This document shows, in pieces, positions 827-23,230 of a DNA stretch of 45,405 nucleotides; the first letter of the stretch is position 1; each line of letters starts with the position of its first letter. The translations under genes were made by a program, and so were the position numbers. A model generated the notes under the pieces. The model was not told the origin of the DNA. It searched no databases and saw only the letters and a program-made list of their open reading frames with translations. This stretch comes from Aequorivita soesokkakensis (GTDB taxonomy: Bacteria; Bacteroidota; Bacteroidia; Flavobacteriales; Flavobacteriaceae), in assembly GCF_001641085.1 (NCBI RefSeq), contig NZ_LXIE01000007.1:1-45405 (forward strand). Direction: 5' to 3'.

Positions 827-1420
827 TTGATCTACGAAACACTCGAAATAGTAAAGGATCAGGTTTCAAAATATTTGGAACTTAAAACCACGGACAGCAA
901 TCTGGTGGTACTGGAAAACGTGTCCAAACACGACGATCCGGACATCAACACCACGAATGACAAAGTGGTTCTTTCACTTTTAAATATTGAGGAAGAAACT
1001 GCGCTTAAAAACAATCCAAACGTAAAATTTAAAAACGGGGAAACTATCTATAAAAACCCAGCTGTAAACCTGAATATTTTTGCGCTGTTTTCATCTAACA
1101 GAAGTACTTATACCAGTTCGTTAACGGCACTTTCCTTTATAATAGAATTCTTCCAATCAAAAAAAATCTTTACCCAAACAAATACACCTTTAAACCCATC
1201 CATTCCCGCTTTGGAAAACATAAAAGAGTTTCGCTTTATAGCAGAGCTCTATACCCCAACTTTTGAGCAATTAAATTATATCTGGGGCACTTTGGGCGGA
1301 AAAGCCCTGCCCAGCGTACTTTACAAAATAAGTATTGTGAAAATTGAAAGCGACTCGCTTGTTGAAAAAGGAAAACCAATTACTGAAATTTCTGGAATCC
1401 TAAAAAATAATGCGCCATGA
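827..1420 (+). CDS. eCIS cap / tube-terminator protein, DUF4255 (Pvc16-like)
   Basis: DUF4255 proteins (Pvc16/Afp16) cap the distal end of the inner tube and sheath and set the end of polymerisation in contractile injection systems. Translation from the TTG at 827 gives about 197 aa beginning (M)IYETLEIVKDQVSKYL, the usual start of the family. The hydrophobic central segment (NLNIFALFSSN...TSLTALSFIIEFFQSK) and the late motif YTPTFEQLNYIWGTLGG also fit DUF4255. An in-frame ATG at 701 would add 42 residues, but these read through the operator and promoter region and do not resemble the family, so I prefer 827. The stop overlaps the next start (ATGA at 1417-1420). In PVC loci this gene is last; here it is first. 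Confidence 0.85.
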   Translation: MIYETLEIVKDQVSKYLELKTTDSNLVVLENVSKHDDPDINTTNDKVVLSLLNIEEETALKNNPNVKFKNGETIYKNPAVNLNIFALFSSNRSTYTSSLTALSFIIEFFQSKKIFTQTNTPLNPSIPALENIKEFRFIAELYTPTFEQLNYIWGTLGGKALPSVLYKISIVKIESDSLVEKGKPITEISGILKNNAP

Positions 1421-2292
1421 GTTTTATTGCCACATATAAAATTCTGTTTGGTATAAATTTGTACCACCACTATTTTTTGGATGATGGCAGTATAGCTTTT
1501 GATACGAATGCTTCTTTAAAGGAAGTGCAACTCAACAAATACAATTTTGGGGATTTTTGTGAAATAGTCCCTTCCGAAGAAACACAGGAAATTTTTAAAG
1601 GCAACAAGCTCGTTTTTAAAACCACTCCCAGTGGGTTCACTATGTATGCTAAGGCGGAAGAAACTGCCCCCAATTCGGGAACTTATAAACCTTTTGTAAA
1701 CCTTCCGCAAACAACAGTTTTCAATTTTTTGATTTATGTAAAAGATTCACTTTTTGAAAATTATTCAACTGTAAATTCAAAACCGTCCATCCCTTATTAT
1801 TTTTCCAATAAAAAACCAGTTTCCGAAGGAGTTTCCTTCAAATACATAGATTTGGAAACCACTACCCTGCCCATTGAAAATTTCAGCATAAACCAAACAA
1901 GTTATGATGAAATAGCAAAAAATCTTTCCACAAAAGAAAAGGTTGGGCTTTTCGGAATTATTTCCTTGGAAATGGCGGGCGATGATACAATTCCCTTTGA
2001 CGGCAACCCTCGAAATATTTTGAACGCAAACGGAACAATTCCCGACTTCCCAAAAAACTTCAAACTTCAATTAAAAAACCGAAGCACCATCTGGAACTAC
2101 CGCGATGCTTCAACCAATACTCTCCTCCACTCCACAGATCCCACAACACTCCCGCTGGCCAAAAACGGCATTATAGGTTACAGTTTCAACGGCCAAGAAA
2201 GACCTTCCGCATTCCCATCCCGACTCATATTTGAAAAGGACGGGGGCGGAAATATCATAAAAACCATTTCAGAAATATTTATTAACCAATAA
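1417..2292 (+). CDS. Unknown 291-aa eCIS-associated protein
   Basis: No signal peptide, membrane segment or named motif is visible. The protein is rich in aromatic residues and beta-prone segments and starts with MSFIATYKILFGINLYHHYF. It overlaps the cap gene by four bases (ATGA) and ends eight bases before the sheath gene, so it is co-translated with structural components. PVC-type loci have no counterpart between cap and sheath that I can name. Structural roles such as a cap-associated, sheath-end or baseplate protein are plausible, but this rests only on position. Confidence 0.7.
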   Translation: MSFIATYKILFGINLYHHYFLDDGSIAFDTNASLKEVQLNKYNFGDFCEIVPSEETQEIFKGNKLVFKTTPSGFTMYAKAEETAPNSGTYKPFVNLPQTTVFNFLIYVKDSLFENYSTVNSKPSIPYYFSNKKPVSEGVSFKYIDLETTTLPIENFSINQTSYDEIAKNLSTKEKVGLFGIISLEMAGDDTIPFDGNPRNILNANGTIPDFPKNFKLQLKNRSTIWNYRDASTNTLLHSTDPTTLPLAKNGIIGYSFNGQERPSAFPSRLIFEKDGGGNIIKTISEIFINQ

Positions 2293-2300
2293 CAAAAACT

Positions 2301-3725
2301 ATGGCAACTACGTACAAAACACCCGGGGTCTATGTGGAGGAAATATCGAAGTTTCCGCCATCTGTGGCCCAAGTGGAAACAGCAATCCCAGCCTTTATAG
2401 GCTACACACAAATTAGTGATACTACAGTTCGCAACAAACCGAAACGTATTGTTTCGCTACTGGAATATGAAACCTATTTTGGAAAAGCACAAAACGAGGC
2501 AAATATTGCTGTAACTATCAATGACACTATAAACAATGGACCGCCAATTCAGCTTTTGAGTCAAAAGTTCAGCGTTGCGGTTGGTGCTACAAGTCCCTAT
2601 GTAATGTATTATGCCATGAGGATGTATTTTGACAATGGTGGTGGGCCCTGCTATATAAATTCAGTTGGCGATTATACGAGTGGAGCAGTAAATCAGCCTT
2701 TGCTCGCGGCGGGTTTGGATGAGTTTGAAAAATTTGACGAACCCACACTTTACGTATTTCCGGATGCAATGGCTGTTTCAACAGCGGCAAGTTATTATTC
2801 GCTTATAAACAGGGCATTGATGCAATCACAAAAATTGAAAGACCGCTTTGTTATTATTGATGCTTTCGCAAATAGTAGTGATAACATTCGCAATACTGCC
2901 TCATTGGGCAATGGTGTTGACTTATTGAAATACGGTGCCGCCTATCATCCATTCCTGAAAACAGTTTACAGCTATGCTTATGACGATGCCGATATAACAC
3001 TAGCGCATAATGTTACTGATGAAACCAATACCACCACAACTGGAGCCTACGATGGAAAAGCTTTGAGCGAACTTGCTGACAGCGGTGATACGGATTTTAA
3101 TTTGATTTTATACAATAAAATCAAGTCCGAATTGGAGCAGCAATATGTCACACTTCCTCCAAGCAGTGCAATGGCCGGAATTTATGCACGAGTAGACAGC
3201 AATCGGGGCGTTTGGAAAGCACCCGCCAATGAATCAGTAAGTGCTTGTGTGGAACCTTCCATAAAAATAACACATGAAGCGCAGCAGGATTTAAACATAC
3301 ATACTACCGGAAAATCCATTAACGCCATTCGTTCCTTTACAGAGAAAGGTATTTTGGTTTGGGGTTCGCGTACACTCGCTGGAAATGACAACGAATGGAA
3401 GTACGTTCCTGTCCGTCGTTTCTTCAATATGGTTGAAGAATCTGTTGAAAAAGCAACTGCGCAATTCGTTTTTGAACCTAATGATGCCAATACGTGGGTG
3501 AAAGTACGTGCTATGATAGAAAACTTCTTAATTCTTCAATGGAGAGCAGGCGCGTTAGCTGGAGCCAAACCCGAGCAAGCATTTTATGTGCGCGTAGGTT
3601 TAGGCGAAACAATGACGGCTGACGATATTCTCAACGGAATTATGAATATCGAAATAGGAATGGCAGCAGTACGTCCAGCAGAATTCATCGTTTTGAAATT
3701 CTCACACAAAATGCAGGAAGCATAA
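2301..3725 (+). CDS. Contractile sheath protein (phage tail sheath family)
   Basis: Forms the outer contractile sheath around the inner tube. The N-terminus KTPGVYVEEISKFPP is the classic tail-sheath start, forming the linker that joins neighbouring subunits. The C-terminal third carries the conserved sheath domain: GILVWGSRTLAG, then VPVRRFFNMVEESVEKA, FVFEPNDANTWVKVRAMIENFL, and a final beta strand MAAVRPAEFIVLKFSHKM. At 474 aa it is of ordinary eCIS sheath size. It is the only sheath gene here, whereas PVC and Afp carry three paralogues; MAC-like systems manage with one. A 95-bp spacer separates it from the tube genes. Confidence 0.95.
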   Translation: MATTYKTPGVYVEEISKFPPSVAQVETAIPAFIGYTQISDTTVRNKPKRIVSLLEYETYFGKAQNEANIAVTINDTINNGPPIQLLSQKFSVAVGATSPYVMYYAMRMYFDNGGGPCYINSVGDYTSGAVNQPLLAAGLDEFEKFDEPTLYVFPDAMAVSTAASYYSLINRALMQSQKLKDRFVIIDAFANSSDNIRNTASLGNGVDLLKYGAAYHPFLKTVYSYAYDDADITLAHNVTDETNTTTTGAYDGKALSELADSGDTDFNLILYNKIKSELEQQYVTLPPSSAMAGIYARVDSNRGVWKAPANESVSACVEPSIKITHEAQQDLNIHTTGKSINAIRSFTEKGILVWGSRTLAGNDNEWKYVPVRRFFNMVEESVEKATAQFVFEPNDANTWVKVRAMIENFLILQWRAGALAGAKPEQAFYVRVGLGETMTADDILNGIMNIEIGMAAVRPAEFIVLKFSHKMQEA

Positions 3726-3735
3726 ATTTAGTTAG

Positions 3736-3759: not shown

Positions 3760-3820
3760 GATTTATGAGCAGCCCAAATACTTTTAACATATAACTTTTA
3801 ACCTTTAACTTTTTTCAAAG

Positions 3821-4258
3821 ATGACAAACACATATCCATTAGTAAAGTTTCATTTCTCAGTGGACTGGGGAGGAACAAACATAGGTTTTACCGAAGTCAG
3901 CGGACTGGATGTAGAAACCGAAATGATCGAGTACAGACATGGTGCAAGTCCGGAATACAGCAAAATCAAGATGCCGGGGATGCAGAAATACAGCAATATC
4001 ACCTTAAAACGTGGTTCGTTTGCAAACGACAACGAGTTTTATAAATGGTGGAACACCGTAAGTTTAAATACTATAGAACGCCGGGATATTACCATTTCAT
4101 TGTTGAACGAGGAGCATGCGCCCGTAATAGTTTGGAAAGTTAAAAACGCTTTTCCGCTAAAAGTGCAATCCACAGATCTTAAAGGCGATGGCAATGAAAC
4201 TGCAATTGAATCTTTGGAAATTGCACACGAAGGTCTAACAATCCAAAACGGAGATTAA
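3821..4258 (+). CDS. Inner tube protein 1 (T4 gp19-like / Pvc1-like)
   Basis: A Hcp/gp19-fold subunit that stacks as hexameric rings to form the inner tube. The family hallmarks are present: VKFHFSVDWGG at the N-terminus, FTEVSGLDVETEMIEYRHG (the FxEVSGL motif), the central KMPGMQKYSNITLKRG, and late EIAHEGLTIQNGD. Its 145-aa length is standard. The spacer ahead of it is A/T-rich with no Shine-Dalgarno. Its TAA overlaps the ATG of the second tube gene by one base, so the two are probably translated together. As the first of the pair it is probably the bulk tube component, as Pvc1 and Afp1 are. Confidence 0.93.
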   Translation: MTNTYPLVKFHFSVDWGGTNIGFTEVSGLDVETEMIEYRHGASPEYSKIKMPGMQKYSNITLKRGSFANDNEFYKWWNTVSLNTIERRDITISLLNEEHAPVIVWKVKNAFPLKVQSTDLKGDGNETAIESLEIAHEGLTIQNGD

Positions 4259-4698
4259 TGGCGACAGCATATCCTCCTGTAAGTTTTCATTTTAAAGTGG
4301 AATTTAACGGAATTTCCGCTCAGGAAAAAGACGTTCAGTTTCAATCAGTATCGGGACTTTCAGTAGATATCGAAACCGAGGAATTTGCTGAGGGGGGCGA
4401 AAACAGGTTCAAACATAAATTTCCTGTGAGGTCGAAATATCCAAATCTCGTTTTAAAACGAGGGATGGTAACCGATTCCGAACTCATAAAATGGTGCCGA
4501 AATGCCATTGAAAGTTTTCAGTTCGAACCAGTAGATCTCACAGTAAAATTGCTAAACGAAAAGCATGAACCCCTTGTTACATGGAACGTGGTGCATGTTT
4601 ATCCAGTAAAGTGGAGTGTTGATGATTTCAATGCCGAAGAGAGCAAAATTACTATTGAAACCATAGAATTAGCCTATAACTATTTTACACTCGTATAA
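4258..4698 (+). CDS. Inner tube protein 2 (T4 gp19-like / Pvc5-like)
   Basis: Paralogue of the preceding tube subunit. It keeps the gp19 pattern: PVSFHFKVEF, FQSVSGLSVDIETEEFAEGG, KFPVRSKYPNLVLKRG, and a closing IETIELAYNYFTLV. The two are clearly diverged in sequence. In PVC and Afp the second tube-like protein forms the first ring, joining the hub to the growing tube, and position next to the hub genes supports that here. The stop is followed within two bases by the start of the 53-aa gene. The assignment to a base ring rather than the shaft is inference from order. Confidence 0.92.
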   Translation: MATAYPPVSFHFKVEFNGISAQEKDVQFQSVSGLSVDIETEEFAEGGENRFKHKFPVRSKYPNLVLKRGMVTDSELIKWCRNAIESFQFEPVDLTVKLLNEKHEPLVTWNVVHVYPVKWSVDDFNAEESKITIETIELAYNYFTLV

Positions 4699-4699
4699 A

Positions 4700-4861
4700 A
4701 TGCCTATCGAAATTAAAGAGCTCCACATAAAAATAAATGTGAACGGTGATGAACAAACCAATGCCTCTCCAAACAAACAATCAGGAGGCAAAGCAGAAGC
4801 TGTAATAAAAGCTGCTGTTGAAGAAGTTATGCGAATTGAATCACGAAAAAAAGAACGGTAA
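4700..4861 (+). CDS. Small eCIS protein, DUF5908-like (Pvc6 position)
   Basis: A 53-aa frame starts at the ATG at 4700 and ends with TAA overlapping the next ATG by one base (4861). It begins MPIEIKELHIKINVN, the typical DUF5908 opening, has a polar Gly/Asn/Ser linker, and ends in an amphipathic, basic helix (EAVIKAAVEEVMRIESRKK). Proteins of this type lie between the tube and LysM genes in many eCIS loci. The function is unknown; a baseplate or tube adaptor role is plausible from position. Tight coupling on both sides supports it as a real gene. Confidence 0.8.
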   Translation: MPIEIKELHIKINVNGDEQTNASPNKQSGGKAEAVIKAAVEEVMRIESRKKER

Positions 4862-5547
4862 TGAAAGGGGAACTTACAAAGTTGAAAATAATAGCCTATC
4901 GCGATAACAAGTTTACACGAATTGTGGGTGATGGTATATTTTCATCATTATTGAACCCAGAAAAATATGCTTTCAAATACAAGGTGGAGTATACCGAATC
5001 GCAGGGCCAAGGCACTAGCACATCACAGCCAAAATACGTTCGTTCCGTTCCAGAGGATTTAAACTTGGAGTTTCTTTTTGACAGAACAGGTATAATCAAA
5101 GGCCACAGCAATGATCTAGGAGTGGGAATCGTGGCCGATATTGAACGATTCAAAAGAATTGTTTTCGATTACAATGGCGACGAACACAAACCAAATTATT
5201 TAATGATTGGATGGGGTACACTTCTTTTTAAAGGAATTTTGGCCGAAATGACCATTGAATACAAGCTTTTTTCTCCCGAAGGAGTTCCATTGCGCGCCGT
5301 AGTAAAAGCCAGCTTTAAAGGAATTGTTGAAGATTTATTGCGTTTGGCCAAGGAAAATAATAATTCTCCAGATTTAACACACGTGCGGATTGTGAAGGAG
5401 GGCGATACATTGCCTTTGATGACGTTCAGAATTTATGGCGATTCAAAATATTATTTACAGGTTGCCGCAGCGAATAATTTAACAAATTTCAGAAGATTGC
5501 AGGCCGGACAACATATCAAATTTCCACCCATAGAAAAAGTTTCATAA
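4861..5547 (+). CDS. LysM-domain hub / tube-baseplate adaptor (Pvc7-like)
   Basis: 228 aa. Residues 1 to about 165 are a tube-like adaptor domain (ERFKRIVFDYNGDEHKPNYLMIGWG, then YKLFSPEGVPLRAVVKASFKG). Residues about 173-225 form a LysM module, with VKEGDTLPLMTFRIYGDSKYY and a closing LQAGQHIKFPPI. LysM here joins the spike to the tube inside the baseplate and does not bind peptidoglycan, as in phage gp53-like and Afp7/Pvc7 proteins. The gene starts on the stop codon of the 53-aa gene and ends one base before the spike gene, matching the Pvc6-7-8 order. Confidence 0.9.
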   Translation: MKGELTKLKIIAYRDNKFTRIVGDGIFSSLLNPEKYAFKYKVEYTESQGQGTSTSQPKYVRSVPEDLNLEFLFDRTGIIKGHSNDLGVGIVADIERFKRIVFDYNGDEHKPNYLMIGWGTLLFKGILAEMTIEYKLFSPEGVPLRAVVKASFKGIVEDLLRLAKENNNSPDLTHVRIVKEGDTLPLMTFRIYGDSKYYLQVAAANNLTNFRRLQAGQHIKFPPIEKVS

Positions 5548-5548
5548 T

Positions 5549-7294
5549 ATGCCCAATAGTAGAATCATAGAAACACAGCAAAGTGCAGATTTAGTGACCT
5601 TCAAAATATTGATTGACGGCAGTGAAATTTCCGCTGCATATCAAGTGAAGAACATTTCTGTAGAAAAGGAAATAAACCGTATTCCCTTTGCTCAGATTGT
5701 ATTTATTGATGGTGAAGCAGCTTCGCAGGATTTTAAATTAAGCAATGAGGACATTCTTATTCCAGGGAAAAAAATTGAAATTAAAGCAGGATATCATAGC
5801 GATGATGAAACAATTTTCAAAGGAATCATTATAAAACACAGTCTTAAAATTCGGGAAAACAATTCAGTTTTAATTGTAGAATGCAGGGATGAAGCCGTGA
5901 AAATGACCATTGGCAGAAAAAGTAATTTTTACTACGAAAGCAAGGATAGCGATATTATTGAAGAACTAATTGGGAAATATTCTCTCGAAAATGAGATAGA
6001 ATCTACATCATTTATAAACAAAGAAATGGTGCAATATCGCGCTTCCGATTGGGATTTTATAATGATGCGTGCTCAGTTGAACGGACAAATCTGTACCGTT
6101 GATGACGGAAAAATAAAAATTTCCAAACCAGATCTTTCCCAAGCCGAAATAGAAACTGTTGCTTTCGGTTCTACTTTATTGGATTTTGACGCCGAAATGG
6201 ATGCCCGAAATCAATTTAACTCAATTACTGCTTACGGTTGGAATCCCTCGGAACAGGAAATTATTGACGCTGAAGCCAATGATCCCGGAATTTCCCTTAA
6301 CGGAAATATTTCAGTTTCAGATTTAGCTGAAGTAATAAATCTCGAAAATCTAGAATTAAAACACGGCGGCAATTACAATTCAACACAATTACAAAATTGG
6401 AGTGATGCAAAAAATCTTTTTCAGCAGCTTTCAAAAACTCGCGGAAGGGTAAAATTTCAAGGAATTCCGATAGTAAAACCCGGAACCATGCTGAAGTTGC
6501 AAGGCGTTGGAGATCGTTTTAATGGAAAAATATTTATCAGCTCCGTACGCCATGAAATTGTTAATGGAAATTGGACCGTTGACGCTGAATTTGGAATGAA
6601 CCCAAAATGGTTCAGCGAAACCTATGATATTTCAGAATTGCCTGCTGCTGGTATTATTCCAGCAGTTAGTGGTTTGCAAGTTGGGGTTGTTTCACAATTG
6701 GAATCAGACCCAGATGGCGAGGATAGAATTTTGGTAAAAATACCCATCATCAACAATGACGAACAAGGCATTTGGACACGAATTGCAACTTTAGATGCCG
6801 GTGATAATCGTGGTTCTTTCTTCTTACCGGAAATTGGCGATGAAGTAATAGTTGGTTTTATTAATGACGATCCAAACCATGCCATAATTCTCGGAATGCT
6901 TCACAGCAGCGCAAAACCTGCTCCATTGACAGCTTCCGACGACAATCACGAAAAAGGATTTGTAACCCGAAGCGAAATGAAATTGATTTTCAACGATGAG
7001 AAAAAATCAATCATTATTGAAACTCCGGGCGGTAAAAAAGTAACCATCGATGAAGATGCGGGAGTTATAAAAATTGAGGATGACAATAGAAATATAATAA
7101 CAATGGATAACGCCGGAATTGCAATGGAAAGTGGAAAGGATTTCAGCATAAAAGCAACAGGCGATTGCAACATTGAAGCGATGAACATAAATGTAAAAGC
7201 CAATGCCCAGTTTAAAGCCGAAGGCAGTGCCGGCGCGGAAGTTTCAACCAGCGCCATTGCCGTTTTGAAAGGTTCTTTGGTTCAAATAAATTAA
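5549..7294 (+). CDS. VgrG-like spike protein (Pvc8-like)
   Basis: 581-aa central spike that trimerises at the tip of the tube. Residues 1 to about 375 make the gp27/phage late-control-D-like hub (KVEKEINR-type start seen as NISVEKEINRIPFAQIVFIDG). Residues about 380-457 are the gp5 OB-fold, with DPDGEDRILVKIP, GDNRGSFFLPEIGDEVIVGF and DDPNHAIILGMLH. Residues about 475-581 form a repetitive beta-helix needle (KSIIIETPGGKKVTI, IKIEDDNRNIITMDNAGI). No extra C-terminal enzymatic domain is fused, so the spike is not itself an effector. The PAAR gene that follows should supply its sharpened tip. Confidence 0.94.
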   Translation: MPNSRIIETQQSADLVTFKILIDGSEISAAYQVKNISVEKEINRIPFAQIVFIDGEAASQDFKLSNEDILIPGKKIEIKAGYHSDDETIFKGIIIKHSLKIRENNSVLIVECRDEAVKMTIGRKSNFYYESKDSDIIEELIGKYSLENEIESTSFINKEMVQYRASDWDFIMMRAQLNGQICTVDDGKIKISKPDLSQAEIETVAFGSTLLDFDAEMDARNQFNSITAYGWNPSEQEIIDAEANDPGISLNGNISVSDLAEVINLENLELKHGGNYNSTQLQNWSDAKNLFQQLSKTRGRVKFQGIPIVKPGTMLKLQGVGDRFNGKIFISSVRHEIVNGNWTVDAEFGMNPKWFSETYDISELPAAGIIPAVSGLQVGVVSQLESDPDGEDRILVKIPIINNDEQGIWTRIATLDAGDNRGSFFLPEIGDEVIVGFINDDPNHAIILGMLHSSAKPAPLTASDDNHEKGFVTRSEMKLIFNDEKKSIIIETPGGKKVTIDEDAGVIKIEDDNRNIITMDNAGIAMESGKDFSIKATGDCNIEAMNINVKANAQFKAEGSAGAEVSTSAIAVLKGSLVQIN

Positions 7295-7333: not shown

Positions 7334-7627
7334 ATGCCTCCAGCAGCCAGAATAAACGATATGCACATTTGCCCGGTGACAAACCCAAACGGAAGTCCCC
7401 ATGTGGGTGGGCCAATATTGCCGGCAGGAGAACCAACAGTTTTAATTGGCGGAATGCCCGCAGCAAGAGTTGGAGATATGGCGACGTGCGCAGGACCACC
7501 GGATTCAATTATTATGGGCTCTTCATCGGTTTTGATTGGCGGAATGCCAGCAGCAAGGTTGGGAGATAGCACGGCACACGGCGGAAGTATTGTTTTGGGA
7601 GAATTTACGGTTTTGATTGGTGGGTAA
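7334..7627 (+). CDS. PAAR-domain spike tip protein (Pvc10-like role)
   Basis: 97-aa PAAR protein forming the conical tip that sits on the VgrG-like trimer. Three repeats are visible: PAAR at residues 3-6, 42-45 and 72-75, each associated with a VLIGG strand (36-40, 66-70, 93-97). Candidate metal ligands at the apex are H11, C13, H23, C52 and H82. No toxin domain is attached. Compared with the PVC locus, this gene comes before the gp25-like gene instead of after it. Confidence 0.93.
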   Translation: MPPAARINDMHICPVTNPNGSPHVGGPILPAGEPTVLIGGMPAARVGDMATCAGPPDSIIMGSSSVLIGGMPAARLGDSTAHGGSIVLGEFTVLIGG

Positions 7628-7707: not shown

Positions 7708-8118
7708 ATGAATACATCAGATACATTTTTAGGGGAAGGATGGAGTTTTCCGCCGCATTTTGATAAGAAAACTGGGGAATTGGTTACAACTGCGGGAGTT
7801 GTTGACATTAATAAAAGCCTCGAAATTCTTTTATCAACCCGTTTGGGCGAGCGGGTAATGCTTCCGAATTATGGCTGCAATCTGGAAGAACTACTGTTTC
7901 AACCACTTGATGTGACCTTAAAAACATATGTAACGGAATTAATAAAAACCGCAATCCTTTATTACGAACCCCGAATCGATACACAAACCGTAACATTGGA
8001 TGCCACAAATGAATTGAATGGCGAAATTTTAATAAACATTGAATACGTGGTCCGAATCACCAACTCACGGGCAAACATGGTATTTCCATTCTATAAAACC
8101 GAAGGAACTGAAGTATAA
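7708..8118 (+). CDS. gp25-like baseplate wedge protein (Pvc9-like)
   Basis: 136 aa with the gp25/W lysozyme-like baseplate fold, which nucleates the sheath at the baseplate. Diagnostic stretches are FLGEGWSFPPHFD near the N-terminus, INKSLEILLSTRLGERVMLPNYGC (the family core, about residues 34-57), LEELLFQPLD, and a C-terminal region with INIEYVVRITNSRANMVFPFY. Despite the family name it is a structural protein, with no catalytic role expected. It ends five bases before the large baseplate gene. Confidence 0.93.
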   Translation: MNTSDTFLGEGWSFPPHFDKKTGELVTTAGVVDINKSLEILLSTRLGERVMLPNYGCNLEELLFQPLDVTLKTYVTELIKTAILYYEPRIDTQTVTLDATNELNGEILINIEYVVRITNSRANMVFPFYKTEGTEV

Positions 8119-8123
8119 AAACA

Positions 8124-11100
8124 ATGGCAAAAAACTGCGAAAATAAATTCCTGATAAACCATAAGGGCACCGAACAAACCCAAAGGTCAATCAGCGCTAT
8201 GCTTTCAGAAAATCTAAACCTGAACGATTTTTCAACGGAAGACTGGATGAAGTTTGCATATAATTTCGCTTCGGAAGTAAATTATTTTTCAGTTGAAAAC
8301 GCTACAGTACCATCGGGAAATTGGGAATCATTTTTTATCGAAAAGGATAAAATAAAAAGTTTTCTTTCTGAAGCTGAAAATTCCAATAACCTCACCCCGC
8401 ACCTCACCCTTTTTGTGTGTTTTCTGAAATTGCTTGAAATTTCCAAAACACATTTTAACACGCTTACCAAAAGACATCTCGATTTCTATTACAACGAAAT
8501 TCTTCAAATAGATAAAAAAGCTCCGGTCGCAGATAGTGTTCATCTCATTTTTGAATTGGCCAAGAATTTTTCTACATCTAAAGTAGATGAACACACGCTA
8601 CTGGAGGCCGGAAAAGATGCATTGGGAAAACGTCTTCAATATGCAACCGATAAAGAAGTTGTAATCAATAAAGCGAGTGTTGCCGCGTTAAAAAGCGTTT
8701 ACCATCACAGAAAAACCAACAATCTAAACCCAAATGAATTCAACGAACTATTCGTTGCGCCAGCAGTAAATTCAGTAGATGGAAAAGGCGAACCTTTTAA
8801 AAGTGATGCAAATTGGTTGCCTTTTGGTTATCCAACCCATTTTAAACCTTCAGTTCCTTTGGAAACGCCCAATTTGGGTTTTGCAATTGCCGCTCCAACT
8901 TTAAATTTAGCCGAAGGAGAACGGATTGTTCAAGTGATTTTCAATCTTGATAAATCAATTCCGGTTTTTAATATTTCGCAGGTTATTGATTGCATTGACG
9001 TTTTTGCAACGGGTGAAAAAGGATGGCTCGGACCTTTTAAAATTTCAGCTTCTGTCAATGGTTTTACATCTTCTATTGGAAATAAAACAGTCCAACTTTG
9101 CTTAAAAATCGATAAAACCGAAAAAGCAATTGTTTCCTATAACAAAGAAATTCACAAAGAAAATTTTGAAACCGAGCAACCTGTTTTTCGATTTCTTCTG
9201 AAAACAAAACAACCTGAATTCACTATTGGGTATAATCTTTATACAGAATTGCTTCAGAAAAAAGTAAAAAAAGCAACAATAAAAGTCTCCGTTTCCGAAG
9301 CTGAAAAATTGCAACTGAAAAATGATTTCGGAAATCTCGCAGCTGACAAACCCTTTTTTCCTTTTGGAACGCAGCCAATGGAGCGTTCGGCATTTTATAT
9401 TGACTATCCCGAAATGTTCAGCAAAAAGTGGGATACAGTTTCGCTTAATGCTTCTTGGCTAAATACTCCGGCCGATTTCAAACAACATTACATTGCTTAT
9501 AGAAGAGATGATACCAATTTCAATCTTTCGCCAAATCTCTATTTTCAAACGCTGTACTTCAATTTTAATACGGTAACCAAAAAATACGCAAAGCCTTCTG
9601 GTTTAGCTTTTAATCCCACCTCAAGTCCGAACAATCTTTACGTTACTGGAAATGATTATTTCAAAGCGAAAGTTTCCATTGAAAACAATGAAAATTTGGT
9701 TTCAGTAAATGATACTTTTACGCTTTTCACCAAAAATGGGGAAATATTTGAAAGCAATCTATCAGTAAATAATTCAAATTATACAACTGGGAAAAACGGA
9801 CCAATAAAGCTTTCATTAAATCAATCATTTTTGCACGCTTTGTTTCCAAAAGTTTATGCGCTCGCACTTTCCACGGAAGAAGATACCGTATTGCCAAATG
9901 AGCCCTATACTCCAATAATTGAAAAAATGGAGCTTTCATATACGGCAAGTCAAGAAGTGGATTTTGGTATTTCACAAACTGCAAATCTTGAAAAAATCCA
10001 GCTTTTTCACGAGCATCCGTTTGGGCAGGCGGAAACTTCCGAAACTTTGGTTCCCACCTATTGTATGGGCGGTGAGCTATATATCGGTCTTGAAAATACC
10101 GAAGATTTGCAGCAAGTTCAGCTTTTATTCCAATTGCTTGAAGGAACCGAAAATCCTTTGGCGGAAACTTTTTCTTCTTCGAAAAAAATTTCTTGGTCTG
10201 TTCTTTCAAACAATTTGTGGATGGAACTTACGAGCGATTATCTTTTGGGAAATACGACAGATAATTTCCTAAAAACAGGAATCGTAACCATTACAATTCC
10301 TAGAGAAGCTACAACTGACAATACATTATTGAGTTCAGGTTTGGTTTGGATTCGCGCGAAAAGTCCGAAAAGTTTTGATGCGGTTTGCAGATTTATAAAT
10401 ATTCACGCACAGGTTATTACATCAACTTTCTTAGATAATGGCAATGAACTTTCCCATCTTGAAAACGGGTTGCCATCTGAAACGATAAGCAAACTTACCG
10501 AGCGTGATTCAGCAATAAAAGGCGTTTCTCAACCGTACAATTCCTTTGGCGGAAAAGCTGAGGAAAGTGATGAAAGCTACTATCGCCGTATAAGTGAAAG
10601 GATTCGTCATCGCGACCGCGCAATTTCACTGTGGGATTATGAACATTTAATTCTTCAGAAATTTCCGGAAGTTTATAAAGTGAAATGTCTTAATCATACA
10701 AAAGGGAATGATTATCATTCCCCCGGAAGTGTTGCTGTAGTTGTAATTCCTGATATTAAAAACAACAATGCTTTCGATATTTTTCAACCGCGATTGAGCA
10801 CTGCAAAGCGAAACGAAGTTCAAAATTATATCAATGATTTGAATACATTTTTCGTTTCTGCGGAAATAATAAATCCCGATTACGAAGAGGTTGAGGTTAC
10901 GCTTGGCGTGAAATTCAATATAGGTTTTGATGAAAATTTTTACACAAAACAATTAGAGGAAGACATCAAAAAATACCTTTCGCCGTGGGCATATTCTGAA
11001 ACCTCTGTTCTGAATTTCGGGGTGGCTTTTCACAAAAACAAACTTATTTCCTATTTGGAAAACCAACCGTATGTTGACTTTTTGGACGATGTGATTGTAA

Positions 11101-16545: not shown

Positions 16546-16628
16546 AGAAAATAGCTGAAAATAGGGCAAAAAAAGAAGGGTATCAGTCGGTAAAATTGTA
16601 CAATCCGAATGATACCCCTATGGGTTAA
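16542..16628 (+). CDS. Possible 28-aa ORF coupled to the 874-aa gene
   Basis: Starts within the stop of the preceding gene (ATGA overlap) and encodes a lysine-rich peptide MKKIAENRAKKEGYQSVKLY followed by NPNDTPMG. The coupling is suggestive, but the length is too short to judge by composition, and an ATGA overlap can occur by chance. It could be the remnant of a longer gene. Confidence 0.2.
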   Translation: MKKIAENRAKKEGYQSVKLYNPNDTPMG

Positions 16629-16795
16629 ACAAGATAAGAAAAAGGACTAACAAGAATGGACAAAAGGAACGAATGTAAATAACAATCGAAAGAACTAAAG
16701 GACAAACTATAAAAGAACTAAGACTACACTATAACAACCCAGTAATTCATCTCTGAATCGAATAGCAAATATAGGTCTAAAAAACTAAAAAACAA
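16629..16795. other. A-rich spacer splitting the eCIS operon
   Basis: With the tiny ORF ahead of it, this makes a 250-bp stretch without a convincing gene, the largest interruption in the injection-system cluster. I see no TAnnTTTG promoter, strong hairpin or terminator in it. Composition becomes more A/T-rich from here through the tape-measure gene. Confidence 0.5.
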
Positions 16796-18145
16796 ATGGT
16801 TGCGCAAAAAAATATCATAAAAAAAGTGGAAATTGGGGTAAATACCCCTTCACTTAGTTTGGGGATGCAATTAAAGGACGGATTGGATTTATTTTTTAAG
16901 GAAGAAATCTTTCCTGCAATGGATGAATATTTCAATTCAACACAAAAAAATAGTTCAAGTATTGTTCGAATAGACACTATTTCAATTGATATTTCATTTG
17001 AAAAAAACAATTCAATTAATGAATTAAAGTCATTAATTATCAATAAGTTAAAAAAAATTATTAATAATGAAATAATTTCGGACAAAGTAGAGGGAAATTT
17101 TACGATCATTTCTCTTGAACAAAAAGAAACAGATGCTTTCTTTCATTTTTTAAAAAATGGTACGCTACCATGGTGGCTTGAAAAAAAGGAAGATTTTTTA
17201 AATCTATTTATAAAAAACTTTAAGTGGGAGAAGAAAATTACAAAAAAACTAGAGGCATTTTTTTCAAATCTGGAGATTCGAAAAAGGTTAGTTTATCAAT
17301 TTGACGATGCGCAGTTATTTCAAATAATTTATTCTTTTTTAAACATATCAAAAGAAGAAAATTTAATTGCTAAAATTCCCCCAACTTACAGACTACAATT
17401 TTGGGAGGCTATTATGCATTTTTCAGTTTTCCAAAACGAGAAAGAAGTTGGAAAAATATTTCAAAATATCTCAAATAAGGATGTATCAAAAATACAGGAA
17501 ATATCAAAAAGAGCTTTTGGATTACATCTTTCTTTTAAAAGGGAAAGTCTTGAAAAAAAGGAGTTCAAGAATACGGTTTCTTCAGAGTTTGAAAAAGAAC
17601 CAAAAGCGTTGGATTTAAATAGTGTTAAAGAAGAAAATGAAATAGTCAAAGAAGGCATTTTGGTTAAAAATGCAGGTTTAATTTTGCTGCACCCATTCTT
17701 AAAGACTTTTTTTGAAAAAATGGATTTTCTTACGGGAAAGTTCATTAAAACTGAAAAAATAGATGAGGCAATACACGCTCTTCACTATTTGGCCACCGGT
17801 AAAGAACAAGCATATGAGCACGATTTGGTTTTTGAAAAATTTCTTTGCAATGTTCCAATTCACCAACCTATAAATCGCCATTTTATATTATCAAAAGAGC
17901 AAAAAATAGCGTGTGAAGTATTATTGCAAGCGGTTTTGGAGCATTGGAGCGCTTTAAAAAGCAAATCGACGGAAATACTTCAAAATGAATTTTTGCAGAG
18001 AGAGGGAAAATTGACTATTTCCGAAGAAAAGCAAACCCTAATTGTAGCGCGAAAAACGCAGGATATATTATTGGACAAACTTCCTTGGAACATTAATTTA
18101 GTCAAAGTTCCATGGATTGAAAAAATTGTATTCGTGGAATGGTAA
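16796..18145 (+). CDS. eCIS tape-measure protein (Pvc14-like)
   Basis: 449 aa matching the contractile injection system tape-measure family. Hallmarks are an N-terminal VEIGVNTPSLSLGMQLKDGL, the motif FLKNGTLPWWL (about 116-126), and a C-terminal block: NAGLILLHPFLKTFFEKMDFL, AIHALHYLATG, then VPIHQPINRHFILSKEQK and a final LPWNINLVKVPWIEKIVFVEW-type segment (LPWNINLVKVPW). Such proteins set tube length and help load cargo. At 449 aa it is short beside Afp14/Pvc14, which predicts a short particle if length scales with the ruler. The coding sequence is visibly richer in A/T and lysine than the baseplate genes. Four bases separate its stop from the DUF4157 gene. Confidence 0.88.
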   Translation: MVAQKNIIKKVEIGVNTPSLSLGMQLKDGLDLFFKEEIFPAMDEYFNSTQKNSSSIVRIDTISIDISFEKNNSINELKSLIINKLKKIINNEIISDKVEGNFTIISLEQKETDAFFHFLKNGTLPWWLEKKEDFLNLFIKNFKWEKKITKKLEAFFSNLEIRKRLVYQFDDAQLFQIIYSFLNISKEENLIAKIPPTYRLQFWEAIMHFSVFQNEKEVGKIFQNISNKDVSKIQEISKRAFGLHLSFKRESLEKKEFKNTVSSEFEKEPKALDLNSVKEENEIVKEGILVKNAGLILLHPFLKTFFEKMDFLTGKFIKTEKIDEAIHALHYLATGKEQAYEHDLVFEKFLCNVPIHQPINRHFILSKEQKIACEVLLQAVLEHWSALKSKSTEILQNEFLQREGKLTISEEKQTLIVARKTQDILLDKLPWNINLVKVPWIEKIVFVEW

Positions 18146-18149
18146 AAAC

Positions 18150-20897
18150 ATGAGAGCATTTTCAACAAATATAGCCCAAAACGGAAAACCTAATGCAGTG
18201 CAACAAATGAGGGTCAACTCATCGTTTTTTGTTGCTCAGACAAAGTTATCTGTGGGAAAAGCCGATGATGCATACGAAAAAGAGGCAGACGCCGTTGCAG
18301 ACAAAGTTGTACAGCGAACAGAAAATAATTCTTTAAACTCTTCGGGAACATTTTTTCCTCCAGCTCCAATTCAGAAAAAAAATGAAGAGGAAAAAACAAA
18401 TGAAATTCAAACAAAATCTCTTTCTGACTCCATCACGCCATTGATCCAACTAAAAGTTGATGAAGAAGAGAAGATTCAAGAGAAATGTGAGGCATGTGAA
18501 AAAGGAAATGCAATTTCAAAAGTTTCGGAGAATGAAGAAACCAAAAATGTGCAAAGAAAATGCGAAGCTTGTGAAGATGAAGAAAAGAAAGTTCAGAAAA
18601 AATCTGTTGGAAATAAAGAGATAAAAACTAACTCAATAGAACAGAGCCTTCAAAATAGTAAGGGTGGTGGAAGTGGTTTGCCAACAACTTCCAAAATGCA
18701 AATGGAACGAGGTTTTGGGGTAGATTTTAGCAAGGTTCGGATTCACGATAATACCACTTCAGTACAAATGAATCGTGATTTAGGGGCACAGGCTTTTACC
18801 AATGGCAATGATATATATTTTAATTCTGGGAAGTTTAGCCCTTCCTCAAAATCTGGAAAGCATTTGTTAGCGCATGAGTTAACACACGTAATTCAGCAAA
18901 ATAAAGGGATACATAATAATATTCAGCGGGCTTGTGAAAATAGTCCAACCACAGTTCCATCTACTGGAATGAATGGCTGTTCTACCGAAACTTCAAGACC
19001 TTCACATCAAAATACAGAAATAAATTATTTAGTTGGCCATTGGGCAATTGATGCCTCCGGATTGGCAGCTCTTTCTGCTATTGCCGCCAAATGGCATGCA
19101 GATGCAAGAAATGATGCCATAAGAATTGATGGTTTTGGAAGTTGCGATGGAGCAGCCTCTACCAATTGGAAGCTTTCCTGTGATCGTGCAAACGCAGTGG
19201 AAAACGAACTTAAGAATCCAAGCGATGGAAGTCCCGGAATTCCATCAACGGCAACCTTTCATAAATTTGCACACGGAGAAACCGAAGAGTTTTCAAGTGT
19301 TGATGAAACCCAAAACCGAAAAAGTTTAGTTACCCTCCAACCAACGGCAACTTCGGTGCCTGCTGTAATGCCCACTACTGGGCCGAACGACTTCCAAATA
19401 AGTAAAATACCGAATTCCAGACAGGACAAAATCTTTTTTGCCACAGGAAGTTCCGTTTTGACCCCAGCAGGAATACATGAAATTGAACATTTAAAATTGA
19501 CAACGCCCACAAATGTAAGGCTTATTGGTTTCGCAAGTTTGGAAGAACCCAGCACCCTAGCTCAGGATAGGGCCAATTCCGTTTCGGCAAGACTACAGCA
19601 AAGCCCAAATGCAATAAGCGTAGTTTCAGCAATTGGAAATGCAGCGGCCACTTCAACCAGAAGTGATTTTGCCAATGCAAGAAGTGTTGAAATTGTTACA
19701 GGAACTGCAACTCCCACAACCTTGGATTGTGATGCGGAAGTGCCCGGCAGTTCACCGCCAATAAAAGTAAATCCGCCAACGCAGCCGTGTACTGCAATGG
19801 ATCCAAATACATTGACAGCTTTCAATACGGTATTGCCCATTGCAAATGCGGCAATGATTGCTGCTATTAATGCTGCAAATCCTTCACATGCAGATTTTAA
19901 TGCTAATTTAGTACAGCAATTCTTCGGAAGAAATGATACTACAGTTTTAAGTACACTTTCAAATAATTTATTAAGATTACAAGCCCACGTAACCGGGCTG
20001 CCATCCATAACCCAATGTGGGGGGCAATGTGATACTGGAGGATGTGAATCTAAGGGTGTAATAGCCTATAATAATGATGTGGATTCTTCTTCAACAATGA
20101 CATTATGCGTACCTACTTTTAAAAATCTAAATATTAATGATGCCGCACGAAACCTTATTCACGAAAGTGCGCACGGAACAACCCCGTTGGGAGGAGCTGG
20201 AGCCCCAACCGAAGGAACAAAAGATGTTGCTTACAGACATGAAAGAATGATGTTTCAGCTTTCTCCTGAAGACAGACTGCGAAACTCTGATAGTTATGCA
20301 TTATTTGCTCTTTTTGCAAAAGAGATACAAACAACTGGAAATCCAAACGCAGTACCCAGCGGAATAAGAACACCCTTCACAGAAACGATTGTGGGAATAA
20401 GCAGCACCGACGAACCGCCATTAAAACTTGCACTTGCCCAAATGGAAAAAAGACTTTCTTGGGCAACGGATCATTCAGGGCAATTATTTGGAGAAGCGCA
20501 GAAGGTTCGATCGGGTTCAAAAATTTGGGCAGATAGTTGGGCACAATCATATATGCACGAAGCTGCTTTGCGTTTCCCCGTGAACGACCCCTCAATAGCT
20601 CCCCAGCAACCTACTTTGGATGATATGGTAAAATTGGCCGCTATTATTGATAGATATAAAACAATGAAAGAAGCAGTAAAACAAGATTTAACAATAACTG
20701 CAATGCCTACCGGTGTTGTAAGTTGGCCCAATATTGCAGTAAATGCCTTCTTTGTTGGGCCAGATTTTTTTAGAGCTGAGCCAAGACAACAAATATCATT
20801 ATTGCTGCAAGCCGTTGCTGGAGCTACTCCAAATATAGAAACAGCTTTTATTCCTGCATACGTTTCGTTTGCAGAATGGATTCACGATCACGCGTAA
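18150..20897 (+). CDS. DUF4157 protein with two OmpA-like domains and M35-like peptidase: putative eCIS cargo
   Basis: The ATG at 18150, four bases after the tape-measure stop, gives 915 aa; an in-frame TTG at 18117 would overlap that gene. Domains: a DUF4157-associated leader (LSVGKADDAYEKEADAVADK, 33-52); a linker with six I/V-Q-x-K tetrapeptides and two CEAC motifs (C113/C116, C138/C141); DUF4157 (about 170-255) ending in HELTHVIQQ with HExxH at 242-246; OmpA-like domain 1 (about 290-393); OmpA-like domain 2 (about 423-517); and a C-terminal region with HESAH (671-675), GTKDVAY (689-695) and NSDSY (712-716), the layout of aspzincin (deuterolysin/M35) zinc peptidases. No signal peptide is seen. 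DUF4157 is strongly associated with eCIS loci. I infer a cargo or effector; an assembly peptidase is the alternative. Confidence 0.85.
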   Translation: MRAFSTNIAQNGKPNAVQQMRVNSSFFVAQTKLSVGKADDAYEKEADAVADKVVQRTENNSLNSSGTFFPPAPIQKKNEEEKTNEIQTKSLSDSITPLIQLKVDEEEKIQEKCEACEKGNAISKVSENEETKNVQRKCEACEDEEKKVQKKSVGNKEIKTNSIEQSLQNSKGGGSGLPTTSKMQMERGFGVDFSKVRIHDNTTSVQMNRDLGAQAFTNGNDIYFNSGKFSPSSKSGKHLLAHELTHVIQQNKGIHNNIQRACENSPTTVPSTGMNGCSTETSRPSHQNTEINYLVGHWAIDASGLAALSAIAAKWHADARNDAIRIDGFGSCDGAASTNWKLSCDRANAVENELKNPSDGSPGIPSTATFHKFAHGETEEFSSVDETQNRKSLVTLQPTATSVPAVMPTTGPNDFQISKIPNSRQDKIFFATGSSVLTPAGIHEIEHLKLTTPTNVRLIGFASLEEPSTLAQDRANSVSARLQQSPNAISVVSAIGNAAATSTRSDFANARSVEIVTGTATPTTLDCDAEVPGSSPPIKVNPPTQPCTAMDPNTLTAFNTVLPIANAAMIAAINAANPSHADFNANLVQQFFGRNDTTVLSTLSNNLLRLQAHVTGLPSITQCGGQCDTGGCESKGVIAYNNDVDSSSTMTLCVPTFKNLNINDAARNLIHESAHGTTPLGGAGAPTEGTKDVAYRHERMMFQLSPEDRLRNSDSYALFALFAKEIQTTGNPNAVPSGIRTPFTETIVGISSTDEPPLKLALAQMEKRLSWATDHSGQLFGEAQKVRSGSKIWADSWAQSYMHEAALRFPVNDPSIAPQQPTLDDMVKLAAIIDRYKTMKEAVKQDLTITAMPTGVVSWPNIAVNAFFVGPDFFRAEPRQQISLLLQAVAGATPNIETAFIPAYVSFAEWIHDHA

Positions 20898-20908
20898 AAA
20901 TATTTAAA

Positions 20909-21829
20909 ATGATAAAGAATAATTCATTCTTAAAAATTGAGAAAACAATTTCACTACCAATTGCTGTTGAAACACAGGCCATTGCAATTACGTGGAATGA
21001 AGAACTTTACATCTTGATAAATTCAGCGGCAAATAAGGAAACATTTGTTTTCAAATTGAATACTTCGTTATCTTTTGAAAAAATTGCCCGTCTCCCTCTT
21101 TTGTCAACTTCTGCTACAATTTGCAAACAGCAATTAATCGTTATAGGTGCCAATAGGGAAGGGAAACCATTAGTAATTGCAATAAATAATTCCGGTGAAA
21201 TCCAAAAGGAAAATATTTTGGAAATTACCCCCACTATTTGGCCGGTTATGGCCTGCTCCAATGAAACAATAATCGCTTGGCAAGAAAATGCAACCGAAAT
21301 AGAACGTGGATATTTCAATGTGGAAACTAACAAAATTGAAAAGCTGCCGTCCATTTCTGTTAGTAATCCGCCAGCTATAATTTTTCCTTTAAAAGAAGAG
21401 ATTGTTGCAACTCTTTCGGAAAAAAATAAAACTCATCTCATAAATTTAACCAGCGGCGAAATAACAAATTTGGATATTTCCCAACCAATGGCCATTGGTA
21501 AAACCATCAATTCAATTTTTTATGGATGGTTGGAAAAAGATACTGTATCCCTCAAATTTTTGAAAAATAGCAAAGAGGTAAACTTTCATCTTAAAAATGC
21601 ATCATTGGGAAAATTAAATGCTATTTCAGGAAAGGAAGCTACACTTTGGATTCAAAAACAAGAAACGGAAATTGGCAACGATTACCAATGGAACTCGGCC
21701 ATTATACAAGAAAACACTGCTATTTTTGAGATTGAGGGCTTTATTTATGCGGTAGGGTCATGGAACGATAAAATTATTTTAATCCAAAACTCAAGATTGA
21801 TTTTGCTAAAAAAATCAATTAACAATTAG
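20909..21829 (+). CDS. Unknown 306-aa protein, possibly beta-propeller-like
   Basis: Starts at the ATG at 20909, 11 bases after the DUF4157 gene; an upstream ATG at 20876 would overlap that gene. It has no signal peptide or membrane segment. The sequence shows repeated short beta-strand pairs at about 40-45-residue intervals (AIAITWNEELYILINS, TICKQQLIVIGAN, VMACSNETIIAWQ, and later FEIEGFIYAVGSWNDKIILI), as in irregular beta-propellers. It sits between the putative cargo and the ATPase, and its composition resembles its neighbours. It could be a cargo chaperone, a cognate immunity factor, or a structural protein. None is shown by sequence. Confidence 0.65.
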   Translation: MIKNNSFLKIEKTISLPIAVETQAIAITWNEELYILINSAANKETFVFKLNTSLSFEKIARLPLLSTSATICKQQLIVIGANREGKPLVIAINNSGEIQKENILEITPTIWPVMACSNETIIAWQENATEIERGYFNVETNKIEKLPSISVSNPPAIIFPLKEEIVATLSEKNKTHLINLTSGEITNLDISQPMAIGKTINSIFYGWLEKDTVSLKFLKNSKEVNFHLKNASLGKLNAISGKEATLWIQKQETEIGNDYQWNSAIIQENTAIFEIEGFIYAVGSWNDKIILIQNSRLILLKKSINN

Positions 21830-21901
21830 ACAATAGTCTTTGTAGCTAAAGTTATACTGCTGTATTTAATTAGCGGATGAAAATACAATTCATTTTAAAT
21901 T

Positions 21902-23230
21902 ATGAAAAAAACACAGGGAATAGAATTAAAACATATCATTTCGTTTTTAGAAGCTTTGATTTCTTGGAGAATTAAAAATACGGCGGCAAGTTTTGAAAAA
22001 GATGCACCAAAACTGGATTTAAAAAAATTGGGGAAATCAAACTTAGGTACCTTTTTAAAAGAAGAAAATCTTTCGCAAGCGGAAAGTGCAATTCTTTTAC
22101 TTACAATTATCCCTTCTTTTAATCCCTCCTTTCTACAGGAAATTGTATCGAAAGAATTCCCAAACGGTACAGATTTTATAGAATTTGGCGGTGTAAAGGG
22201 ACAAAATCACCGGGGGATTCTTCCCACTGGCGAAACCGTACAATTCATTTTGGGCGGCACTGACCTTTCAAAACGAATGCAGTGCATGGATTTTTTTTCC
22301 GAAGCACATTTATTCAACAAAAAGGATATTCTCTATCTGGAAAATGTACCTTCCGGTGAACCATTGATGAGCGGGAAACTTATTCTTTTCCCTGAAATTA
22401 TACATAAACTTACCACTGGCACTGTTCCTCCGCCAAGACTTAGCACACAATTTCCCGCAGATAAGCTTGAAACTAAACTAAGCTGGAATGACCTTGTTTT
22501 GAGTGAAAAAACGATGCTTCAGATTAAGGAATTAGAAATTTGGCTACAACACAATGAGCATTTGTTCAAAAATTGGGGAATGGAAAAACGTTTGAAACCA
22601 GGTTACAGAGTGCTTTTTCACGGACCTGCAGGAACAGGAAAAACGCTAACTGCAAGTCTTTTGGGAAAATATACTAACAAACCAGTTTATAGGATTGATC
22701 TTTCAACCGTAGTTTCAAAATATATTGGGGAAACGGAAAAAAATCTTTCAAATCTATTCAATAAAGCAGCCCATAAAGATTGGATTTTGTTTTTCGACGA
22801 AGCGGATGCCATCTTTGGAAAACGCACGAATGTTCGCGACGCACACGATAAATACGCAAACCAAGAGGTTTCCTATTTGTTGCAACGTGTGGAGTCTCAT
22901 CCCGGATTGATTATTTTGGCTTCCAATTTTAAGGATAATATTGATGAAGCATTTACAAGAAGGTTTCAGTCTATCATTGCTTTTGAAATGCCCAATGCCG
23001 CCGAAAGGATTATAATTTGGAAAACAAACCTTCCGAAAAAACTTAAGGTTGATGCTGAAATTAATTGGGACCAAATAGCAAAAAAGTATGAACTTACAGG
23101 TTCAAATATTCTGAACATTATTCACTTTTGCTGTCTAAAAATTTTAAATGAAAAAAGTGGTATTCTTACTTTAGAAATTTTGCAACAAGGTATAAAACGG
23201 GAATTTTTAAAGGAAAACAGAACGCATTAA
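21902..23230 (+). CDS. eCIS AAA+ ATPase (Pvc15-like)
   Basis: 442 aa with a roughly 200-residue N-terminal region and one AAA+ module: Walker A GPAGTGKT at 241-248, Walker B ILFFDEADAIFG at about 294-305, sensor 1 in LIILASNFKDNID, and an arginine finger segment AFTRRFQSIIAFEMPNAAER. Afp15/Pvc15 ATPases are needed for particle assembly or cargo loading and are not part of the mature particle. Sixty-odd A/T-rich bases precede it, with no clear promoter. The stop lies one base from that of a convergent gene, so it is the last gene of the cluster. Confidence 0.92.
   Translation: MKKTQGIELKHIISFLEALISWRIKNTAASFEKDAPKLDLKKLGKSNLGTFLKEENLSQAESAILLLTIIPSFNPSFLQEIVSKEFPNGTDFIEFGGVKGQNHRGILPTGETVQFILGGTDLSKRMQCMDFFSEAHLFNKKDILYLENVPSGEPLMSGKLILFPEIIHKLTTGTVPPPRLSTQFPADKLETKLSWNDLVLSEKTMLQIKELEIWLQHNEHLFKNWGMEKRLKPGYRVLFHGPAGTGKTLTASLLGKYTNKPVYRIDLSTVVSKYIGETEKNLSNLFNKAAHKDWILFFDEADAIFGKRTNVRDAHDKYANQEVSYLLQRVESHPGLIILASNFKDNIDEAFTRRFQSIIAFEMPNAAERIIIWKTNLPKKLKVDAEINWDQIAKKYELTGSNILNIIHFCCLKILNEKSGILTLEILQQGIKREFLKENRTH

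Follow-up and report, generated by a model that had tools for sequence, protein, structure and literature searches.

Positions 827–23230 of a 45,405-bp stretch of DNA from Aequorivita soesokkakensis (Flavobacteriaceae; contig NZ_LXIE01000007.1, positions 1–45,405, hereafter the window) hold on the plus strand a complete extracellular contractile injection system (eCIS) of 17 protein genes. The host genome measures 3.19 Mb, and 700 bp of contig lie to the left of the operon. The genes follow in the order cap, cap adaptor, sheath, tube, second tube protein, plug, LysM protein, spike, PAAR, gp25, Alg11, Alg12, Alg19-type fibre, tape measure, cargo, propeller protein and AAA ATPase (Table 1). Judged from its sequence, the locus is an eCIS of the type of AlgoCIS from Algoriphagus machipongonensis. 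The explanation that we consider probable for the locus as a whole is an AlgoCIS-type eCIS with a swapped payload bay, an M35 metallopeptidase cargo, a propeller partner for this cargo and a small RNA (sRNA) on the minus strand.

An AlgoCIS chain was the best solved match for the cap adaptor, plug, cap, sheath, Alg11, Alg12 and gp25-like protein, with E values from 3e-244 to 6e-6. The locus has in common with AlgoCIS the cap, the cap adaptor (Alg16B), the sheath, the Alg6 plug, gp25, Alg11 and Alg12, the N-terminus of an Alg19-type fibre, and a DUF4157 cargo near the ATPase, from which it is separated by one gene. The AlgoCIS PDB names Algo1, 2, 6 and 12 coincide with gene ranks 1, 2, 6 and 12 in the window, which suggests that the numbers denote gene order. 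AlgoCIS has two DUF4157 cargo genes (Cgo1/Cgo2), whereas the window has one; the fibre is 1443 aa long in AlgoCIS and 874 aa here, and the match ends at residue 491. The matching chain, 9wt0_a, is a 'PKD domain-containing protein' in an AlgoCIS entry and was read as Alg19. No Pfam or PHROG match was obtained for the fibre; the whole protein, including its last 380 residues, aligned in other Flavobacteriaceae and in a metagenome-assembled genome (MAG) of the Prolixibacteraceae, with 43–93% identity among complete copies.

A preliminary description of this DNA had recognized an eCIS from homologues on the plus strand, and both the call and the strand were borne out. It had termed the system nearly complete; the locus is in fact complete, and the plug gene, the cargo domains and the conserved non-coding element at 16566–16765 had been missed. 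The cap-first order, the single sheath and three genes without a PVC counterpart had been presented as departures from the Photorhabdus PVC and Afp systems. The plan of cap, tube, baseplate, tape measure, ATPase and downstream payload is shared with these systems as described in the accessible part of their report (PMC11495950); they differ in having three sheath proteins each (Pvc2–4, Afp2–4). One sheath protein, Alg2, is named in the accessible text of the AlgoCIS paper, which also reports finding no Alg19 homologue in AFP/PVC (PMC8894135). Thus, the order is rearranged only relative to PVC/Afp and not to Aequorivita and other Bacteroidota loci with the same layout or, to the extent that the PDB gene numbers reveal it, to AlgoCIS; because the locus is of the AlgoCIS type, neither the cap-first order, the single sheath nor the cap adaptor is a departure. 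Among the three genes, 1417–2292 corresponds to the AlgoCIS cap adaptor and 13921–16545 matches the AlgoCIS fibre over residues 2–491, leaving 20909–21829 alone without a known counterpart. The tape measure, said to be short, aligns to positions 2–463 of the 463-position CIS_TMP profile and is therefore not short.

Nine Aequorivita relatives and further genera of Bacteroidota share this core order. Purifying selection acts on the core: the ratio of nonsynonymous to synonymous substitution rates (dN/dS) is 0.036–0.080 for the concatenated genes (dS was finite in 42 of 45 pairs, and many of its values lie above 1 and are rough). In comparisons with eight relatives, the tape measure was the fastest-changing particle gene (49–61% identity, dN/dS 0.15–0.26), its last ~75 residues being better kept than the rest; the other particle genes retained 68–99% identity, the plug being lowest.

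Up to the tape measure, gene order is kept in the nine Aequorivita relatives with a full locus, whereas the genes between tape measure and ATPase differ (the G003 locus, cut by a contig end upstream, shows tape measure to ATPase only). This stretch, whose genes are swapped between species, would be a payload bay. Payloads in 11 Aequorivita loci comprise an OmpA–M35 protein (six loci), a protein combining PG_binding_1 with an HExxH motif (two), a 1471-aa protein with a nuclease match just under the cut-off (one) and none (two). All six OmpA–M35 loci also have the propeller gene, five a PG_binding protein (with a CHAP match just under the cut-off) and four an 857-aa membrane protein (patatin match under the cut-off). 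In the window, the cargo open reading frame (ORF) spans 18117–20897, with the start best placed at the ATG at 18150, the start of several relatives. By analogy with Cgo1/Cgo2 the product is probably a cargo; its eCIS_core, OmpA and Aspzincin_M35 matches all pass the respective cut-offs, and it showed a remote match to the solved M35 protease 1eb6 (neutral protease II; E 5e-5). The N-terminal box FF..Q.KL.VG is exact in 7 of the 15 bay proteins listed, including that of the window, occurs in a looser form in 12, and is missing in G016, L055 and the Luteirhabdus HExxH protein. In Luteirhabdus (L052), one gene encodes a DUF4157–OmpA protein and another a 296-aa protein that has an HExxH motif but no Pfam match and that we read as M35-like; these two separate genes resemble the fused cargo of the window, and the Thermobacterium bay genes are near-identical to these. 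Bays in other genera also hold DUF4157 proteins. Bay proteins without a DUF4157 hit were seen at L055 14342–15889 (OmpA and a weak M6 match) and L052 16121–17011 (HExxH motif).

A relative of the ATPase at 1e-40 or better was present in all 25 genomes with an Alg19-type match (24 plus G041; many match only the N-terminal half), and DUF4157 in 22 of the 24 and in G041. In A. lipolytica (G021, L020) and MAG UBA3591 (G008, L030), the eCIS locus lacks cargo and AAA ATPase but is otherwise complete. The end of the tape-measure frame is 53 bp (G021) and 25 bp (G008) away from the flank gene, which is DUF2891 in G008 (76% identity, L054) and has the same place and length as that of the window in G021. 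Neither genome yielded a DUF4157 domain or a close relative of the window ATPase (best 51 and 69 bits). The genes checked in the two loci contain no internal stops, and dN/dS, where dS was finite, was 0.043–0.069, like that of the others. A core tree of nine concatenated proteins joins G008 to G022 (support 100) and places G021 in a group with G013 and G027 (support 90); the two losses were therefore separate.

For the protein encoded directly downstream of the cargo no known family was found in the Pfam scan or the PDB search, and it thus has no counterpart among the solved AlgoCIS chains, the comparison being limited to the PDB. Its predicted model (pLDDT 77, pTM 0.80, six sequences in the alignment) is a beta-propeller with 28 strands and hence probably seven blades. 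The gene was found in 6 of 28 Aequorivita genomes, exactly those with the OmpA–M35 cargo. The highest 19-residue hydropathy mean of 1.12 indicates no hydrophobic signal segment, so the propeller would stay in the cytoplasm, where it may be a partner of the cargo, either a chaperone or an inhibitor.

The tape-measure gene is preceded by a gap of 250 bp (16546–16795). Frames starting within or next to it do not exceed 39 aa, and a 110-aa frame on the minus strand, running against the tape-measure gene, extends into the gap only as far as 16777. Over nine Aequorivita loci (G027 was left out of this count), 55% of the columns in the gap are invariant. The corresponding values for two other gaps in these operons are 4% and 2%, a third gap being too short to be measured. 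Third codon positions in 12 genes are 11–21% invariant. The best 48-nt segment of the gap has 44 invariant columns, the maximum among 15,645 overlapping coding segments of the 12 genes being 42. The conserved element occupies the same place in every one of the 10 Aequorivita loci tested, as it does in six loci from other genera, Prolixibacteraceae among them, and it is still present in both loci without cargo and ATPase. In 16 long-fibre loci with a tape-measure hit, the space before the first possible start is at most 32 bp in 13 and 67 and 92 bp in two, and L116 could not be judged.

The minus strand of the element reads TTTG-N19-TATATTTG in the window, followed by the 5' hairpin UUCAGAGAUGAA, UGGGUU pairing with AACCCA 92–117 nt on, a terminator hairpin and a U-tract. 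On these features, 16566–16765 looks like an sRNA gene of ~200 nt on the minus strand. In an alignment of 16 rows (A6), 99.4% of 350 cells were paired and 5 of 22 pairs had changed on both sides; none of 500 shuffles reached either value, and slid registers were 31–47% paired. Whereas the rest of the locus is a known AlgoCIS-type system, the element matches no known RNA family: Rfam (4227 models) gave no gathering hit in the window, and on a stretch of 501 bases only two hits at chance level (E 2.9 and 3.2). A literature search joining contractile injection system, noncoding RNA and tape measure returned no paper. Among 148 relatives, an RNA model (R1) detected the element in 11 (G737 and ten Aequorivita already included in the model), with one weak opposite-strand hit in G023 on the same hairpin; a second model (R2) found none in 394 other genomes of the class. 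A pair of boxes resembling the Bacteroidota promoter consensus (−33/−7 type) precedes the element on the minus strand in 17 of 18 loci, L051 and L098 among them; in 16 of these 17 it lies within the counted 60 nt.

Alternatively, there may be no separate sRNA, and the element would act through its plus strand, serving the mRNA between the fibre and tape-measure cistrons as a leader, attenuator or processing site. The stems also form on this strand (97.0% of 332 cells paired, 3 of 21 counted pairs changed on both sides, a result reached by 2 of 500 shuffles), and in all 16 loci of A5 the element is directly upstream of the tape-measure gene. However, five A–C mismatches of the plus strand, in the terminator and 5' hairpins, become G–U pairs on the minus strand, and a single plus-strand G–U becomes A–C; the U-tract follows the hairpin on the minus strand only, where the promoter-like boxes are also found; and the fold z-score is −2.6 for the minus and −1.4 for the plus strand, at different lengths. 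Action on the plus strand is thus unlikely, though it keeps appreciable weight. It is quite improbable that the element encodes a tiny peptide (MNYW...) and owes part of its conservation to coding. An AUG frame starting M-N/Y-Y-W is present on the minus strand, in the conserved 5' part, in all 16 rows of A6, which makes such a peptide possible, but the frame has no shared end (5 codons in L059, 6 in L052 and L056, 8 in the window, 24 in L058), and the terminator hairpin, far from it, is as conserved as the AUG-frame region. Besides this frame, several observations count against an sRNA gene. All six both-side changes fall in three rows, L055 (four), L058 and L059; the shuffle control ignores relatedness, and 10 of the 16 rows of A6 are from one genus. 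Two loci that appear diverged on visual inspection are missed by both RNA models. Of the 17 loci with the box pair, 14 have a −7 box that ends in A and not in the consensus G; the −33 box (TTTG) overlaps the tape-measure start codon by one base, L059 has no box pair, and a pair of this kind turns up in 8.6% of shuffles made from the window's flank.

Table 1. Features of the eCIS locus, with positions in the window and the best supporting match.
Feature	Position	Strand	Evidence
Cap (Alg16A/Pvc16 type), 197 aa, TTG start	827..1420	+	Pvc16_N 119 bits; AlgoCIS cap E 1e-48, aligned from residue 43 of longer ORF
Cap adaptor (Alg16B type)	1417..2292	+	7adz cap adaptor (Algo2) E 7e-23
Single contractile sheath	2301..3725	+	AlgoCIS sheath E 1e-161; Anabaena All3325 E 2e-155
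Inner tube	3821..4258	+	Phage_T4_gp19 166 bits
Second tube protein (putative tube initiator, Alg5 position)	4258..4698	+	Phage_T4_gp19 159 bits
Plug (Alg6), 53 aa	4700..4861	+	AlgoCIS 'inner protein (Algo6)' E 6e-6 over 53/53 residues; conserved in relatives
LysM tube initiator (Alg7)	4861..5547	+	CIS_tube 173 bits; LysM match below its cut-off
Spike (VgrG-like, Alg8)	5549..7294	+	Phage_base_V; vgr_GE 261 bits
PAAR tip (Alg10)	7334..7627	+	PAAR_motif 92 bits
gp25-like (Alg9)	7708..8118	+	GPW_gp25; 7aeb_S 185 bits
Baseplate wedge/cage (Alg11)	8124..11261	+	7aeb_G 817 bits
Baseplate wedge (Alg12)	11249..13909	+	7aeb_A (Algo12) 782 bits, full length
Short Alg19-type fibre, 874 aa	13921..16545	+	9wt0_a 337 bits, residues 2–491; Foldseek to Anabaena All3314 E 2e-18 (low-confidence model)
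Candidate small-RNA gene: 5' hairpin, long-range stem, terminator hairpin and U-tract	16566..16765	-	Sequence and covariation
Promoter-like boxes of candidate RNA: TTTG (16796–16793), 19 nt, TATATTTG (16773–16766)	16766..16796	-	
Tape measure	16796..18145	+	CIS_TMP 347 bits
Cargo/effector: DUF4157, OmpA, M35 metallopeptidase	18150..20897	+	eCIS_core 102, Aspzincin_M35 50, OmpA 43 bits
Cargo-linked predicted beta-propeller, no known family	20909..21829	+	Predicted model
AAA ATPase (Pvc15/Alg15 type), probable cargo loader	21902..23230	+	AAA 94 bits

For the cap, the ORF list offers an alternative upstream ATG at 701; the length of 197 aa from the TTG at 827 equals that given for Alg16A in the accessible part of the AlgoCIS paper (PMC8894135). 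Other Aequorivita genomes contain a further contractile-system locus of a different kind, with a short match to CIS_TMP (L035–L042; G004 contig 22, G019, G011, G021 contig 44). Stops were found inside the short CIS_TMP match in G004 contig 32, G019 and G007, yet G019's own 172-aa frame is open. The Cochleicola tape-measure gene (L059, 13316–14794) appears as two separate frames. Near the right contig end, 44041–45375 encodes an ECF sigma factor and an RskA-type anti-sigma factor.

As what would refute an eCIS, the preliminary description had named sheath, tube and baseplate proteins that miss eCIS profiles or better match a complete prophage or a type VI secretion system (T6SS); the call withstood this test, the best solved matches being AlgoCIS components. 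A defective prophage or R-tailocin cluster was rejected by gene content and retains almost no probability: the sheath, tube, hub and gp25 belong to phage-tail families, but no head, packaging, terminase, integration or TssJLM family was present among 33 window proteins (Pfam scan; the plug was outside it), in agreement with the reported lack of capsid, integrase and TssJLM; Alg12 had no match in 50,697 phage records, and of the 162 that matched the sheath none covered 80%, the ten listed covering 38–46%. A classical T6SS (i–iii) was likewise rejected, as IcmF_C (TssM) had no match across the whole genome while an E. coli control was positive. TssM defines classical type VI secretion; T6SSiv need not have it. 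That the system is anchored in the cell, like T6SSiv or the thylakoid CIS of Anabaena, and not released as a particle is improbable. The accessible text of PMC8894135 places released and anchored systems together in clade Ib, and the low-confidence fibre model resembles Anabaena All3314. Shared with the Anabaena system (PMC8894136) are homologues of All3314/Cis19, the All3325 sheath, the All3315 and All3317 baseplate proteins and the Asl3322 plug. Against anchoring stand the lack of TssM in the genome, the lack of a hydrophobic anchor segment (no 19-residue stretch above a mean hydropathy of 1.65 in 16 of 16 eCIS proteins checked), and the scores of sheath, Alg11 and Alg12, which are best to AlgoCIS and lower to the Anabaena system.

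For the payload, eukaryotic targets (grazing protists or animal hosts), with M35 as a secreted-type endopeptidase, are somewhat unlikely. The similarity to neutral protease II would suit them, M35 proteases could equally act on eukaryotic targets, and other eCISs act on eukaryotes according to the accessible parts of two reports (PMC8894135, PMC8213781); but domains linked to peptidoglycan appear repeatedly in the bays (OmpA, PG_binding_1 and a CHAP match slightly below the cut-off), and AlgoCIS, in the accessible text of PMC13314943, attaches to a bacterium via Alg19 and then fires on it. Possible, though doubtful, is that the propeller is an immunity protein for the M35 cargo. Its confinement to the cargo-bearing genomes and its position next to the cargo gene speak for this, yet a cytoplasmic propeller would not meet an OmpA-anchored protease expected to act in the periplasm, and it diverges faster than the cargo (49–64% versus 74–77% identity to the window, four relatives). 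The pairing of propeller and cargo itself comes from six related genomes of one genus. As to the link between cargo and ATPase, two of the 24 relatives (G099 and G039) keep an ATPase relative though no DUF4157 domain was found in them, and since the two genes adjoin, one deletion could remove both without a functional reason.

The AlgoCIS-type locus would then work as follows. The genes from cap to tape measure would make a sheathed tube on a caged baseplate, with the short Alg19-type fibre binding the target. The AAA ATPase would help to load the DUF4157–OmpA–M35 cargo via that protein's N-terminus, as Pvc15 loads PVC payloads in the accessible account of that system (PMC11495950), and the cargo would be injected upon contraction; OmpA would hold the M35 protease at the cell wall of a Gram-negative target, a Gram-negative bacterium being the most likely target because peptidoglycan-linked domains recur in the payloads of relatives. 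The ~200-nt minus-strand sRNA would probably pair with the operon mRNA and so set how strongly the second half of the operon is expressed. More tentatively, and with slightly less than even confidence, these elements may be joined: some Bacteroidota eCIS operons would be split in two by a dedicated antisense sRNA gene, transcribed between the fibre and tape-measure genes, whose RNA would pair with the polycistronic message and set the dose of tape measure, cargo and loader relative to the particle, and two Aequorivita lineages would have turned their eCIS into a cargo-free, tailocin-like puncturing particle. As the RNA is kept where cargo and ATPase are lost, it would serve the particle and not the payload.

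An eCIS combines many sheath and tube subunits with few tape measures, cargos and loader ATPases, and to our knowledge the way in which producers keep these in proportion is an open point; if the joined reading is true, a conserved antisense RNA located precisely at this boundary would give direct access to the control of subunit balance. The two loci without cargo and ATPase would offer a natural test of the purpose of the ATPase and of the function of an unloaded eCIS, and the recurring wall-binding domains of the payloads would point to bacterial prey.

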